Part shown: positions 6,916-12,151 of the stretch, piece after piece | How positions within the stretch are numbered: position 1 is the first letter of the stretch | Layout of the letters: every line of letters starts with the position of its first letter | NCBI RefSeq assembly: GCF_000725345.1 | Contig: NZ_CP008852.1 | Location: 4,456,001-4,520,000 of the forward strand | Length of the DNA: 64,000 nucleotides | From: Pelosinus sp. UFO1 | Lineage (GTDB): Bacteria > Bacillota > Negativicutes > DSM-13327 | Direction of reading: 5' to 3' | Program-made: the position numbers and the translations under genes | Notes under the pieces: model-generated | What the model was told of the DNA's origin: nothing | Database searches by the model: none | The model's input: the letters and a program-made list of their open reading frames with translations, nothing else

Positions 6916-7335
6916 TTATTGGAGTTGTTTAATGACTTCATCTGTAATGTCAGTACCGCCTTGGGCTACACCATTTTTGTATAAAACTACACTCAATTTT
7001 TTATTTTTCGCAATACCGTCTAGGGTTTGTTTTATACTCGCATCAATTTGGCCTTCCATATCTTGCTTGGTTTTCATGAATTCTGCATATAAAGTTTCTT
7101 GTTTCTTTTGAAAATCAGCTGGACTTAGTGATGCTTTATCTTTTTCTAATTGGTCGCTAAGTTCTTTCCCTTTGGTATTCAATTGATCTTGAAACTGTTT
7201 TACCTTCGGACTCTCTGTCATTACCTTATTCACATCAATTACCCCAACGTTGTCACCGCTTGACATACAACCGCCCAAAAGAGCCGCAGTAAGTACTATT
7301 AAGAACAATAAAGCAATTTTTTTTCCTTTTTTCAT
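6916..7335 (-). CDS. OmpH/Skp-family lipoprotein (paralogue 1)
   Basis: Skp-like periplasmic chaperone candidate for outer-membrane proteins, 139 aa. The signal sequence ends in a lipobox LLGGC with Cys23, so it is predicted to be lipid-anchored, unlike soluble Skp. The mature part opens with the family motif VGVIDVNKVM, continues with a helical hairpin (45-100) rich in Lys/Gln/Glu, and ends with TDITDEVIKQLQ, the usual OmpH tail. GGAGGAC precedes the ATG. It is first of three paralogues when counted from lpxD. Confidence 0.85.
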   Translation of the reverse strand: MKKGKKIALLFLIVLTAALLGGCMSSGDNVGVIDVNKVMTESPKVKQFQDQLNTKGKELSDQLEKDKASLSPADFQKKQETLYAEFMKTKQDMEGQIDASIKQTLDGIAKNKKLSVVLYKNGVAQGGTDITDEVIKQLQ

Positions 7336-7437
7336 GGTAAGTCCTCCATTTTTTCTACTTTGTTATTTCCTAAAAGGATTGTCGTAGCATTTCATCTACA
7401 TAATTTGTAACATTCGCTACTATTATATACAATTTTA

Positions 7438-8376
7438 TTACTTATTACACTCTGCAATTACTGCATCTGTTATGTCCACACCACTTACATTCACCAGAGC
7501 ATTCGTTAATACCGCATCAAAGCCTCGCTCAACAGCAACTTTACCTGTTTTATCTTTAATATTCTCTATGATAGAGTCTTGTAAAGTTCGCATTTCTTGC
7601 TGCTTCATTACTAATTGCTCTGAAAGATCATCGTCTACGAGTTTTGTGGTATCTGGTATGGTTGCTTGCTGTGCACTGCGCACTGCCAGTTCTGCCTCTT
7701 TCGCAGCAGCTTGCTTAGAAAGTTCTTGGTTCAGTTGGTTACTATAGGCTCCTAGCTCTTCTTGCACAGCAGCTTGTTCAGGTGCCATAGATTGCTCCAT
7801 TTGTTTTACTAACTGAGCTTGTTTTTCATCCATCTTTTTAGCATACTGATTTTGTAGGGTTTCTAATTCCCCTTGTAGGGAAGTAGTTTCCTCTTTTGTC
7901 AGCTGCACTGTTTTCAATTTAAGTTGCAAATTAAAAATTTGCGGCTGGAACTCTTTATCCACTGCTTCGGAGTAGACTTTAAGCTCCTCCGATAGAGTTT
8001 TATGCAGGGCTGCTTCTTTAGTAGCAAGCCTTGTATTCATTTCCTTTTGTTTCACTGCCATCTTTTCATTGTACTCTTGTTCAAATGCTTTATTTAATTC
8101 TGCCATATTACCTTGCGGCATTTCAGGCATTGTCTGATTGCTTTGATTCTGCTGCGCTAACGCCGCCTGTTCTACCTTAGCTGCTATTGTGTTTGCTTGT
8201 TTCTCCAAGGTAAGGAACTGGTTGTATTTAGGATGTCCTTTTACAGCTTTGTTCATATCAATTATACCCACTTGGGGCTGAGCTGGCGCTTTAGTGTCTT
8301 GGTCTTTTTTGGTACCGCATCCGGCGACAAGCATCATCAAAGCTAGCGTCACAATAAGAAACCTTCTAGTAGACAC
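7438..8376 (-). CDS. long OmpH/Skp-family lipoprotein with extended coiled coil (paralogue 2)
   Basis: 312 aa from the GTG at 8376 (GAGG 8 nt upstream). The lipobox VAGC anchors it to a membrane. After the opening motif VGIIDMNKAV comes an unusually long coiled coil (about 55-250) dense in Gln, Glu and Lys, before the OmpH ending VSGVDITDAVIAECNK. That is about twice the length of ordinary Skp (about 160 aa), so the two tentacle helices would be much longer. A periplasmic chaperone or spacer role between membranes is plausible but inferred. Confidence 0.8.
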   Translation of the reverse strand: MSTRRFLIVTLALMMLVAGCGTKKDQDTKAPAQPQVGIIDMNKAVKGHPKYNQFLTLEKQANTIAAKVEQAALAQQNQSNQTMPEMPQGNMAELNKAFEQEYNEKMAVKQKEMNTRLATKEAALHKTLSEELKVYSEAVDKEFQPQIFNLQLKLKTVQLTKEETTSLQGELETLQNQYAKKMDEKQAQLVKQMEQSMAPEQAAVQEELGAYSNQLNQELSKQAAAKEAELAVRSAQQATIPDTTKLVDDDLSEQLVMKQQEMRTLQDSIIENIKDKTGKVAVERGFDAVLTNALVNVSGVDITDAVIAECNK

Positions 8377-8402
8377 CAAGATCACCTCTTTCTAATAAAG
8401 AA

Positions 8403-8425
8403 CCGAGCTGGTCAAACCTGCTCGG
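8403..8425 (-). terminator. weak hairpin between ompH paralogues
   Basis: CCGAGC (8403-8408) and GCTCGG (8420-8425) can pair with an 11-nt loop; on the minus strand TTCTTTATT follows. This may be a partial terminator or processing site between paralogues 3 and 2. Confidence 0.3.
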
Positions 8426-8444
8426 CCATACTACATTTTTTTAT

Positions 8445-8918
8445 TTACTTCGCGTTTAATTTCTTGCCAACTTCGTCGGTAATATCCTGACCACCAAAAA
8501 CAACATTGCTCTTATCCATGACAACTGCTAAACCTTTTGCATTAGCTACTGCTTTAATTGCATCATCAACTTTGCTATATACAGGAGCAATTAATTCTTG
8601 TTGTTTCAAGGACAATCTTTGTTGTACTTGCGCATAAAAATCTTGTTTTTCTTTATCATTCATGGTAGCTGATTTCGTTTCGAAATCTTTTCTTGCTGAT
8701 TCTACTTCAGCCTGCATTGTTTCTTGGGCTTTCGCCATATCAGGATGCTGAGAAACCAGAACTTGATAATTAACAACACCAATATTTGAGGAGCTGTTGG
8801 CGCTTGCCGCATAGGATTTACCGCTTTGGGATAAAGCCAAACCAACGATACCCAACATAAAAAATACTGCTATTGCCAAGGACACAAACTTAACTTGTTT
8901 TTTATCAAATTTAAGCAC
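8445..8918 (-). CDS. OmpH/Skp-family periplasmic chaperone (paralogue 3)
   Basis: 157 aa, closest of the three to classical Skp in length. It has a signal peptide or uncleaved anchor (about 15-37, ending SYAASANS) and no lipobox Cys. The mature part opens IGVVNYQVLVSQHPDMAKAQ, with a coiled coil at about 65-125 and the ending GGQDITDEVGKKLNAK. GTG start at 8918 with AGAAGGG upstream. It is the first ompH transcribed after bamA and the POTRA-like gene, which fits chaperoning of outer-membrane proteins to BamA. Confidence 0.87.
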   Translation of the reverse strand: MLKFDKKQVKFVSLAIAVFFMLGIVGLALSQSGKSYAASANSSSNIGVVNYQVLVSQHPDMAKAQETMQAEVESARKDFETKSATMNDKEKQDFYAQVQQRLSLKQQELIAPVYSKVDDAIKAVANAKGLAVVMDKSNVVFGGQDITDEVGKKLNAK

Positions 8919-9023: not shown

Positions 9024-10304
9024 CTACAAATTTCCAATTAATCGCAGCCATTGATCATCTTTCGTAATAATATATTCTGCACTTAAGAAATCGTGGAGTT
9101 TGTACCGAATGCCTAGCTCATTGTAACCATTCTTGGGAGTGCGTTCTAGACGTAATGCCCAATTGGATTTTAGCTCTTGCTGAAGCCATAATCTATCCTG
9201 TGCACTCTTTGTATCGTATTTCAGTCCCAATGTGGTACTAGAGCCAATCTTATGTCCCCACCCAGGAACAAACTCCCAGGCGACGGTACTAGGAATGAAG
9301 TTTACTTCTACAAAGGCTTCATCACGCTTGCCGATAAACTTTCCAAAGTGCAATCTAGCCGAAGTATTATCTTGCCGTCGTCCCATGTCCAAATAGCCTT
9401 CTAGGGTAACTTTGTATTTATCTGTTTCTACCTTCAACGCAATTTCAGTGTCAACTCCAGGATTAAGCCGGGGAGTAACTTGCAAACCATACTTTTTAGC
9501 TAAAGGCTGTTCAGCAACAGTGGATACGAGTTGCGTAGTGAAATAATCACGGTGTCTTTCAAGAAAAGCCACAGGTAAACCAATAAGGTTCTTACTTGTA
9601 TCATCCATCGTCGGGCGTGCAGCGGCTAGTAAAATATTTGGAATCGTTTCTGACCTAAGAGATACATGTACATCCTGCACTACCGTTCCGATGGGCGATA
9701 ATGACACTTTCACAAGAGTATGGGTCCCGGGGATGACTTCTATGTTAGCTCGAAACTCTGGCAACTGAGTGGATAGCATTTCTCTTGTCGCTATTTTCGA
9801 TAGCCCTCCTGCCCAGTCTACCGCATCAACTGGCAATCCGATCAACACATCACTTACTTTTTCTTCTACATTCCCCATGTCTTGTTTAATCAGTTTCACT
9901 ACTTCTGCCGACAAATTACCAAAATCATATTCCACTGCTACCCCTTGTACCACATCTCCCCATGGAGCCACCTCTACTGTTAAAGTAGTATTCCCACTAG
10001 GGGCAAGAGTAACGGATTGCACCGAATATCCAACTAAGACTCGATCAAATATTTCTTTGATCAGTTTTTCATAAGAAGCCTTACCTTCTACAACTTCACT
10101 GATCTTACGACCAACCACCATCTGCTCTCCTACAGTACCCACACTGGCAGCCATACGTTTGGCAATCTTGGGAGGTGGCATTTGACTAGAAACAATGGTA
10201 ACTGTTACTTTCTCCACTTCATCAGAGGCGTGGGCCACTCCTGACAATAGAAAAAGACATAGGAATGCAGTTATACAAACAAGACTAAAGGGATTCCTAT
10301 TAAT
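9024..10304 (-). CDS. secreted POTRA-like/beta-rich protein of unknown function, best start AUU
   Basis: Counting from TTG at 10247 gives 407 aa beginning inside a signal peptide with no Shine-Dalgarno. The frame stays open upstream to an ATT at 10304, 9 nt after a strong GAGGAGG (10320-10314), and the added residues (NRNPFSLVCITAFLCLFLLS, then GVAHA) complete a good signal peptide. The mature N-terminal half has two or three alpha/beta units (about 50-260) like POTRA domains; the last third (LEGYLDMGRRQ to DQWLRLIGNL) is strand-rich and probably membrane-embedded or barrel-like. It sits between bamA and ompH, so an outer-membrane assembly role is likely, but I do not recognise the family. 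Confidence 0.75.
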   Translation of the reverse strand: MNRNPFSLVCITAFLCLFLLSGVAHASDEVEKVTVTIVSSQMPPPKIAKRMAASVGTVGEQMVVGRKISEVVEGKASYEKLIKEIFDRVLVGYSVQSVTLAPSGNTTLTVEVAPWGDVVQGVAVEYDFGNLSAEVVKLIKQDMGNVEEKVSDVLIGLPVDAVDWAGGLSKIATREMLSTQLPEFRANIEVIPGTHTLVKVSLSPIGTVVQDVHVSLRSETIPNILLAAARPTMDDTSKNLIGLPVAFLERHRDYFTTQLVSTVAEQPLAKKYGLQVTPRLNPGVDTEIALKVETDKYKVTLEGYLDMGRRQDNTSARLHFGKFIGKRDEAFVEVNFIPSTVAWEFVPGWGHKIGSSTTLGLKYDTKSAQDRLWLQQELKSNWALRLERTPKNGYNELGIRYKLHDFLSAEYIITKDDQWLRLIGNL

Positions 10305-10341
10305 GATAATGCACCTCCTCTTAGTTTACCATATTATAGAT

Positions 10342-10374
10342 TTTCGGAGTCAGGTCATAGACCTGACTCCGAAA
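10342..10374 (-). terminator. perfect 15-bp hairpin after bamA
   Basis: TTTCGGAGTCAGGTC and its exact complement flank a 3-nt loop, just downstream of the bamA stop. On the minus strand a weak T-rich tail follows. It probably terminates or stabilises the bamA transcript. Confidence 0.6.
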
Positions 10375-10384
10375 TAAAGTTAGC

Positions 10385-12151
10385 TTAGAATTGTCCACCA
10401 AAGCTAAAGTGAGTTTTCGCACCTTGACCGCCTTTAGCGTAATCAAGACGAATGGGGCCGATTGGTGTAGAAACACGAATCCCTACCCCGACACTAGCCT
10501 CTAACTCATTGAGTTTATATCCTTCACCAGTCCAGGCTTTACCAATATCACTAAAGGCTACACCCTCTACTTTACTAGCGATAGGGAAACGATATTCTGC
10601 TGTAGCAGCAAGCATTTTATCACCTTTAAATTGGTCATCGCGGTAACCACGAAGAGTATCTGAGCCACCTACGGCAAAACGGCCACTGTCTGGCATTTTA
10701 CCATCAGCATAACCTACTGTTCCCCGTAGTGCTACAACTTGTGCATGTCCTACTTTAATATAGTTGCGAGATTCCGCAGTATATTTATTGTAGTTAAAGT
10801 CACCTCCAAGGGTTTTCCCAGCGAATTCTGCAGTCAGGGAAACTCGGTTGCCTTCTGTTGGACTAAACACATTATCCCGAGAGTCATAGACACGCATCAA
10901 GCTGATGCTGTTCGTGGTACCAAAGTTATCTTTTAAATAGTTTGGATGGTTTCCCATAAAGGTTGTAGTGGCTGTATCAGTTTGTACACCACTATAATCC
11001 ACACCTGATACCCACTTTACATAGCTATCATCACGATGTTTCAAGGTAATATAATTCTGAGTATATTCTCCTTGAGGACGTCCTAAAGTAACATCAAAAC
11101 CTCTACGATTTTTGTCATAGGTAGATCTGGTGCTACCATCATCTTCATAATCATTATACTCATTTGTCATGTTGTAGAAATTAAAGCCAAGAGAGGTTTG
11201 TTTGGCATCTAGCCAAGGACGAGTATAGCTTACGGAATAGTTCCGATTGCTTGCCGTACCACCAAACTCCCAGTGTAAGTTAATTTTGTCTCCTGTTCCG
11301 CGGAAATTGTCGTCACCAAGTTCGATGATACCAATCATACCGTCGGATTTACTGTAACCGCCCCCAATGGAGAATTTACCCGTTTTTTGTTCCACTACTG
11401 TGGTTTCAAGAACGATTGCATTGGGTTCTTTACCAGGATTCAGTTTCATATTTACATCTTCAAAATAGCCAAGGTTGTACACCTTTTGCATACTACGTTT
11501 GGCATCTTTCACATTGAAGGGCTGATTTGGTTTCAACTTCATTTCACGAGTAATAACATAATCCTTAGTTTTCTCATTTCCTTTAATTTGGATGCCTTCC
11601 AATACCCCTTCATTGATGGTAATTGTCAGTACACCACCAGTACCCATTGCCACATCACTTACCTTAGTCAGGATAAATCCTTGGTCATGGTAATATTGTT
11701 CAATGGCTCTTACATTTTCATTCAAAGTTTTCGAATTTAAGATACTGCCTTTAGTAACTTTCAGCATACTACTTAGCTTGTCTGTTGACACCTTCGTATT
11801 GCCTTTAATAATGATATCTTGCAATACCGGGTTTTCCATCACTGTATAAACTACCTGAACTCCTTCTGGAACTTCATTAAAGTTGGATACTACATCAAAA
11901 AAAGTACCTAGTTCATAAATAGCCTGCATATCTTGTTTGATTTTCTCCGCTGTTAACGTTTCACCAGGTTTCACTTTCACTACATCCATGATCGTCTTTT
12001 CCGCCACAGTAGCATTTCCCGTTATAGAAACGGAAGTGACTACTTTACCAGTAGGATCTGCGGCGTAAGCAGGAGACAAAATGGAGAAAACAAGACTGAG
12101 ACTAAAGATAGTCGCAAGTAGTATATGCCTATAGTTTTTTTGGATTTTCAT
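10385..12151 (-). CDS. bamA: outer-membrane protein assembly factor BamA
   Basis: Central Omp85 protein that folds beta-barrels into the outer membrane. 588 aa, shorter than E. coli BamA (about 810) because it has three rather than five POTRA domains: about 37-108, 109-185 and 186-262, each opening with a strand like VTSVSITGN, LQDIIIKGN or LEGIQIKGN. The 16-strand barrel (263-588) contains the Omp85 lid-loop motif LRGY and ends in FSFGGQF with the C-terminal Phe typical of outer-membrane proteins. The signal peptide ends SPAYA (about residue 30). AGGAGG precedes the ATG. The neighbourhood (tamB upstream, ompH downstream) agrees. Confidence 0.96.
   Translation of the reverse strand: MKIQKNYRHILLATIFSLSLVFSILSPAYAADPTGKVVTSVSITGNATVAEKTIMDVVKVKPGETLTAEKIKQDMQAIYELGTFFDVVSNFNEVPEGVQVVYTVMENPVLQDIIIKGNTKVSTDKLSSMLKVTKGSILNSKTLNENVRAIEQYYHDQGFILTKVSDVAMGTGGVLTITINEGVLEGIQIKGNEKTKDYVITREMKLKPNQPFNVKDAKRSMQKVYNLGYFEDVNMKLNPGKEPNAIVLETTVVEQKTGKFSIGGGYSKSDGMIGIIELGDDNFRGTGDKINLHWEFGGTASNRNYSVSYTRPWLDAKQTSLGFNFYNMTNEYNDYEDDGSTRSTYDKNRRGFDVTLGRPQGEYTQNYITLKHRDDSYVKWVSGVDYSGVQTDTATTTFMGNHPNYLKDNFGTTNSISLMRVYDSRDNVFSPTEGNRVSLTAEFAGKTLGGDFNYNKYTAESRNYIKVGHAQVVALRGTVGYADGKMPDSGRFAVGGSDTLRGYRDDQFKGDKMLAATAEYRFPIASKVEGVAFSDIGKAWTGEGYKLNELEASVGVGIRVSTPIGPIRLDYAKGGQGAKTHFSFGGQF

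Follow-up and report, generated by a model that had tools for sequence, protein, structure and literature searches.

A probable AUU start codon on a bamA-adjacent gene for a predicted POTRA-barrel protein in Pelosinus sp. UFO1

Translation of a gene situated between bamA and an ompH/skp-like gene of Pelosinus sp. UFO1, referred to here as gene X and predicted to encode a secreted protein with POTRA-like domains and a β-barrel, very probably begins at the AUU codon at position 10304, as judged from the sequence and its comparison among relatives. The best overall explanation is considered to be that this AUU codon, coupled with a strong Shine-Dalgarno (SD) sequence, results in restrained, IF3-sensitive translation of gene X, which we regard as likely. 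All positions refer to the window, i.e., the whole stretch of 64,000 nucleotides that was analyzed, unless a genome is named; the genome in question (G000) comprises a single contig of 5.1 Mb.

Organization of the gene X locus

On the minus strand, bamA is followed by gene X and then by OmpH/Skp-like genes (Table 1). The region from 6916 to 8918 (minus strand) harbors three small tandem envelope genes, among which the first two match OmpH and the third is similar by eye; the translations of the second and third display, again by eye, lipobox-like N termini (VAGC and LGGC). In Veillonella parvula, skp genes are described immediately 3′ of bamA (PMC5491611), and hypothetical proteins are mentioned within a conserved envelope locus of diderm Firmicutes (PMC5007114).

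Table 1. Features of the gene X locus and of one further gene with the same initiation layout
Feature	Position	Strand	Remarks
gene X	9024..10304	minus	predicted 426-residue secreted POTRA and β-barrel protein, AUU to TAG
bamA	10385..12151	minus	ATG start; immediately 5′ of gene X; Omp85 E 8.6e-53, POTRA E 4e-36
ompH/skp-like gene	8445..8918	minus	GTG start; immediately 3′ of gene X; OmpH E 1.1e-19
AUU start codon of gene X (probable)	10302..10304	minus	ATT in 10/10 family genomes; ATT/ATA/ATC in 37/91 loci
extended SD of gene X, GAGGAGGTG	10312..10320	minus	start codon 9 nt past GGAGG; infC-like layout
signal peptide, INRNPFSLVCITAFLCLFLLSGVAHA	10227..10304	minus	cleavage site judged by eye; helix 5-20 in the predicted model
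15-bp hairpin, TTTCGGAGTCAGGTC-tat-GACCTGACTCCGAAA	10342..10374	minus	between the bamA stop and the gene X SD
three POTRA-like domains	9426..10223	minus	residues 28-293; AF2 pLDDT 88.6 for residues 28-296
C-terminal β-barrel	9030..9416	minus	residues 297-425; ten predicted strands
rny	G000:C1:2333738	minus	probable AUU-type start after an extended SD

The minus strand at the start of gene X reads TAA-ACT-AAG-AGG-AGG-TGC-ATT-ATC-ATT-AAT-AGG-AAT. The frame is closed by a TAA located 7 codons upstream of ATT 10304, and no ATG, GTG or TTG lies between the two; two further isoleucine codons, ATT 10310 and ATC 10307, precede the proposed start. The first canonical codon in the frame is TTG 10247, 19 codons in. 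The GAGGAGG at 10320-10314 extends to GAGGAGGTG at 10320-10312, and the SD score is 22 for ATT 10304 versus 5 for TTG 10247, a codon which is replaced by TTA in G006, a relative with 96% identity. The initial annotation, which had proposed an AUU start 9 nt past this SD, a lack of any usable canonical codon, a TTG 10247 devoid of an SD and a signal peptide read from the ATT, is thus borne out on each of these points, in the case of the signal peptide by eye and by the helix in the model. A scan of the 64-kb window for ATT, ATC or ATA within 60 codons of the 5′ end of an open reading frame (ORF) found gene X to be the only ORF with an SD score of at least 18 positioned 6-10 nt before such a codon.

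Start codons across orthologues and alternative readings

Gene X was detected in 55/60 relatives and in 277/380 genomes of the class. Ninety-seven gene X loci were picked to span genera, and six duplicates were dropped to leave 91. Hand assignment placed AUU, AUA or AUC (collectively AUH) starts in 37 of the 91 loci (ATT, 26; ATA, 7; ATC, 4), representing 16 of 31 families, while a scorer which favors canonical codons returned AUH in 36/91. Because 54/91 loci received a canonical label, the weak start is dispensable elsewhere; according to the canonical-favoring scorer, families f4, f10, f11, f15, f25 and f34 possess canonical starts in all loci read, mostly with weaker SDs. When read from the equivalent start, 64 hand-checked orthologues comprise 421-450 residues, and a signal-peptide-like N terminus, judged by eye, follows the AUH codon in the 37 AUH loci. 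Placement of the start labels on a tree requires 10 changes, of which 4 are forced by well-supported branches.

A blind control, in which the best SD was placed regardless of the start codon, yielded 48/91 loci with a score of at least 18. In 33 of these 48 loci, the single codon in frame at a distance of 7-9 nt from GGAGG was ATT, ATC or ATA; it was ATG in 2 and GTG or TTG in 1, while AUH occurred in 11/48 at 4-6 nt and in 3/48 at 10-12 nt (Fisher, 1.5e-10 for the enrichment at 7-9 nt, the rows being related and not independent); 15 of 22 families contribute. SD strength likewise differed, with a median of 22 at AUH loci (n = 37) versus 12 at hand-set canonical loci (n = 27; P = 7e-8). The canonical-favoring scorer assigned AUH to 0/59 bamA and 0/90 ompH loci, and without the canonical bonus these figures became 3/59 and 14/90, respectively; since the bonus-free scorer also selects AUH in the neighboring genes, an SD score alone is no proof of an AUH start. 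The 8-9 nt spacing is missing in 4/37 AUH loci (L012, L040, L043 and L072), and the AUH assignments of L012 and L072, in which it amounts to 4 nt, are doubtful. Five AUH loci (L012, L014, L023, L027 and L045) also contain a canonical codon 14-17 nt past GGAGG. The GTG inside GGAGGTG was considered as a common start and rejected, as its phase relative to the gene varies between loci. Gene X presents the sequence traits of an AUU-type start: AUU, AUA or AUC where a canonical codon suitably spaced from the SD would be expected, a strong extended SD of the AGGAGGTG type and a non-canonical codon which is kept in orthologues.

The initial annotation had entertained a sequencing error that changed ATG to ATT, and had named the comparison of orthologues as a check. 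Such an error (in sequencing or assembly), or a private mutation, would require a change of a single base, AUU starts are rare, and an ATG is found near the place in some other families (L017, L018 and L019); yet orthologues in other assemblies show ATT in all 10/10 family genomes and, across 16 families, AUH in 37/91 loci, and a nearby ATG appears only outside the family (for instance, in 1/3 loci read in f14 and 3/4 in f9), which rules this explanation out for practical purposes and leaves it a negligible probability. Initiation at TTG 10247 or GTG 10238, with the upstream part untranslated, would rely on the earliest canonical codons of this frame but would leave little or nothing of the hydrophobic segment, in conflict with the signal-peptide-like N termini that follow the AUH codon elsewhere, and the low SD score of TTG 10247 and its replacement in G006 also argue against it; this is highly improbable. 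Only marginally less so is a start at ATT 10310 or ATC 10307, both of which are in frame, 3 and 6 nt past the same SD, but vary among relatives (ATT 10310 is ACT in G006, and ATC 10307 is GTT, TCT or GCT in several relatives), while the ATT at 10304 is invariant in the family and lies at the 9-nt distance that is usual for infC.

Two further explanations accept the AUU start and deny it a regulatory role. The weak start may represent tolerated drift, whereby a strong SD suffices and the codon is without regulatory effect; the interchange of AUU, AUA and AUC and the presence of ATG or GTG in some lineages are in keeping with this. However, a single base change to AUG should boost output, and AUH is nevertheless retained in 16 families, the adjoining bamA and ompH genes are canonical by the canonical-favoring scorer, and an AUH start is also conserved in infC and rny of the same genome, so that drift is judged unlikely. 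Alternatively, translation of gene X may depend chiefly on ribosomes that have just translated bamA, in which case the start codon would hardly matter. Several loci in f10, f11 and f25 have a gene X start that overlaps or abuts the bamA stop (e.g., TTCTAATGAAG in L083), but here the bamA stop is positioned approximately 80 nt upstream with the 15-bp hairpin in between, and gene X possesses a strong SD of its own; coupling is accordingly held to be improbable, more so than drift.

A hairpin with a CAGG...CCTG core (GAGTCAGG...CCTGACTC) is located no more than 220 nt upstream of the start codon in 47/91 loci. At the first outer pair, 28 of these have T-A, 10 have T-G and 9 have C-G, and at the fifth pair 45/47 have A-T, T-A, G-C or C-G; the pairs covary, and therefore both structure and sequence are kept. 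The copy in the window is without the T run of an intrinsic terminator. A search of the whole window against Rfam gave no match at the gathering score, and at E up to 1 the interval 10100-10600 produced one sub-threshold snoRNA row, which does not coincide with the hairpin. A dispersed repeat was considered and rejected, given that the form with 10-bp arms occurs once in its own genome; a looser form is present in 16/40 genomes, with 0-3 copies per genome. The hairpin accompanies 35/37 AUH loci versus 12/54 others, a link which is descriptive only, as the 4 independent pairs that the tree yields are too few for a test.

Genes with the same initiation layout

infC is the classic example of a gene with an AUU start. 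It was detected in 58/60 relatives. In the 50 loci read, the conserved I-S-K start opens with AUU (45 loci), AUA (4) or AUC (1), located 9 nt from the SD core in 44/50 and 8 or 10 nt from it in 6/50; in 13/50, an ATG (7) or GTG (6) is also present two codons earlier, approximately 3 nt past GGAGG. The infC start region of the genome under study is AGGGGGTGAGCGACAATT. Gene X shares with infC (of E. coli and others) an AUU, AUA or AUC codon after an extended SD, at the 9-nt spacing usual in these genomes; in contrast to infC, it does not encode IF3, and so self-feedback is absent and any control would be one-way. The AUU start of E. coli pcnB, the subject of work by Binns and Masters in 2002, reportedly keeps expression low; gene X resembles pcnB in its start codon but is a different gene from a different phylum.

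Other non-canonical starts have been characterized experimentally. The sigR gene of Streptomyces, for which IF3 repression is experimentally proven, starts at GTC with AGGAGGTG, and its strong SD was proposed to offset the action of IF3 on the non-canonical start (PMC5472188). Gene X likewise belongs to a conserved operon and combines a non-canonical start with this extended SD, whereas sigR uses GTC rather than AUH, encodes a sigma factor and is described there as kept across Streptomyces and unseen in other genera (PMC5472188). In Staphylococcus aureus, Ribo-Ret mapping is reported to have located conserved starts with a strong extended SD in cvfC1 (AUU) and ccpN (AUA), whose reporters gave approximately 10% of AUG output, with ccpN reaching up to 30% in rich medium, and B. 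subtilis is reported to retain the non-canonical ccpN start (PMC13009471). A conserved AUU-type start and a strong extended SD are thus shared by gene X, cvfC1 and ccpN, although the latter two encode, according to the same report, a small protein and a transcriptional repressor, as opposed to an outer-membrane-type protein.

AGGAGG-N7-9-ATT occurs at 151 places in the genome under study versus 186 in the reversed control (no enrichment), and AGGRGGTG-N6/7-ATH at 26 versus 22 places, or 10 versus 11 in G317, a genome of another family; given these counts, the motif alone proves nothing, and ORF position and conservation were used. ORFs of at least 100 codons that begin at ATH, taken where no canonical start of a long ORF lies nearby, comprised infC, gene X, rny, rpoN and genes encoding a LytTR regulator, a ClpP-like phage-type protease and an FlgT_N-like protein in the genome under study. 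From the 10 motif places of G317, ORFs of at least 100 codons without a well-spaced canonical start were infC (AUU), rny (AUA), ccpN (AUU) and gene X (AUU), the infC gene also having a GTG 3 nt past GGAGG.

For rny, which encodes RNase Y, 30/32 genomes matched and, with one fragment set aside, 29 loci with a start were obtained (L205-L233), of which 27 score best at AUU, AUC or AUA after an extended SD and 2 at ATG. The ccpN gene of G317 (L282:856-1503) has an AUU codon after AGGGGGTG, and its product matches the NCBIfam CcpN model (E 1.9e-90). As an AUA start of ccpN has been mapped in S. aureus (PMC13009471), this gene serves as a positive control and, on the sequence of G317, the non-canonical start reported for ccpN in S. 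aureus and B. subtilis extends to the Negativicutes. The rpoN gene (sigma-54; L235-L242) has AUC in 7/8 genomes of the genus and ATG in the eighth; it was rejected as a widely conserved AUH case, since the other loci read carry ATG at the place or a few codons from it, and conservation is at most at the genus level. The same layout is seen in the genome under study in the LytTR regulator gene (L184, AUA), the ClpP-like protease gene (L187, AUU) and the gene for the FlgT_N-like secreted protein (L204, AUU), the last of which was discarded as a conserved AUH case because the starts of its orthologues vary. Among the matches listed in a literature search of mainly open-access sources, there was no prior report of the gene X start or of a non-canonical rny start.

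Predicted product and proposed control of gene X

The AlphaFold2 model of the gene X product, built with 59 orthologues (pLDDT 88.2), comprises an N-terminal helix, three POTRA-like units and ten barrel strands. When the POTRA part alone was submitted to Foldseek, the best 50 matches listed were all BamA, TamA, Omp85 or TOC chains, including BamA 9cmw (E 3.1e-7) and POTRA1-3 of Omp85 3mc8 (E 3.5e-7), with low TM-scores that reflect either a different angular arrangement of the domains or a remote match; VIA gave Z values up to 8.0 for the same part. At least one POTRA domain, as is typical of Omp85, is thus present by predicted fold, in agreement with the initial annotation, although Pfam POTRA models gave no match. 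The best barrel row from VIA-align was the designed TMB10 8uzl (Z 13.6; rmsd 2.9; 129 aligned), and OpcA 1k24 scored similarly (Z 12.9; rmsd 2.9; 124 aligned). For the whole model, the best 50 VIA matches listed were mostly small barrels, not Omp85 barrels, which is no proof of a different origin.

Members of the Omp85 superfamily are described as having a 16-stranded C-terminal barrel (PMC4490367, PMC11116518). The gene X product resembles BamA and TamA in that predicted POTRA-like domains precede an outer-membrane-type barrel, and its gene lies beside bamA, but its model has ten strands (residues 297-425) instead of 16 and no Omp85 Pfam match was obtained: the barrel family PF01103 matched neither the protein of the window at E up to 1 nor 59 members at E up to 0.1. 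Searches of Pfam, NCBIfam and PDB sequences returned only chance-level rows, one of them in PDB. Going by the model, the gene X product is POTRA-barrel in plan, is not filed as an Omp85 member and is a probable outer-membrane protein.

Only two of the three bases of an AUU codon pair with the anticodon of the initiator tRNA, and IF3 destabilizes such complexes. We propose that the 9-nt extended SD would hold the ribosome at AUU 10304, offsetting the poor codon-anticodon pairing, a role which we infer from the infC, sigR and S. aureus cases. IF3, by rejecting the mismatched AUU complex, would then cap gene X output, which would increase at a low ratio of IF3 to 30S subunits; by analogy with those cases, this is somewhat favored. 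The hairpin past the bamA stop could uncouple gene X from bamA or provide the upstream mRNA with a stable 3′ end, to which we attach slightly less than even weight. The outcome would be a low, separately adjustable dose of a POTRA-barrel accessory for outer-membrane assembly beside BamA, and here the chances appear evenly balanced; that the arrangement serves to provide such a dose of a BAM-linked protein is a guess which fits the place of the gene in the operon. The conservation of the weak start in relatives from many bacterial families suggests that cells deliberately restrain the amount of gene X protein.

AUU-type starts are known to be maintained in few bacterial genes, and those described in the papers cited above specify translation, RNA or regulatory factors or a small protein. 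Gene X differs in that its product is predicted to be secreted, it belongs to an outer-membrane assembly operon, and its weak start is kept in 16 of the 31 families read. Gene-finding programs restricted to ATG, GTG or TTG starts are expected to misplace the gene X start and to lose the signal peptide. Taken with the rny observation, the finding provides a testable prediction, namely, that one initiation factor tunes a defined set of genes in diderm Firmicutes. It is conceivable, though on balance doubtful, that infC, rny, ccpN and gene X constitute an IF3-sensitive translational regulon in the Negativicutes with a single initiation layout, i.e., an extended SD followed by AUU, AUA or AUC about 8-9 nt on. 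If this were true, the level of IF3 would jointly set translation-factor supply, mRNA decay, carbon control and outer-membrane assembly.
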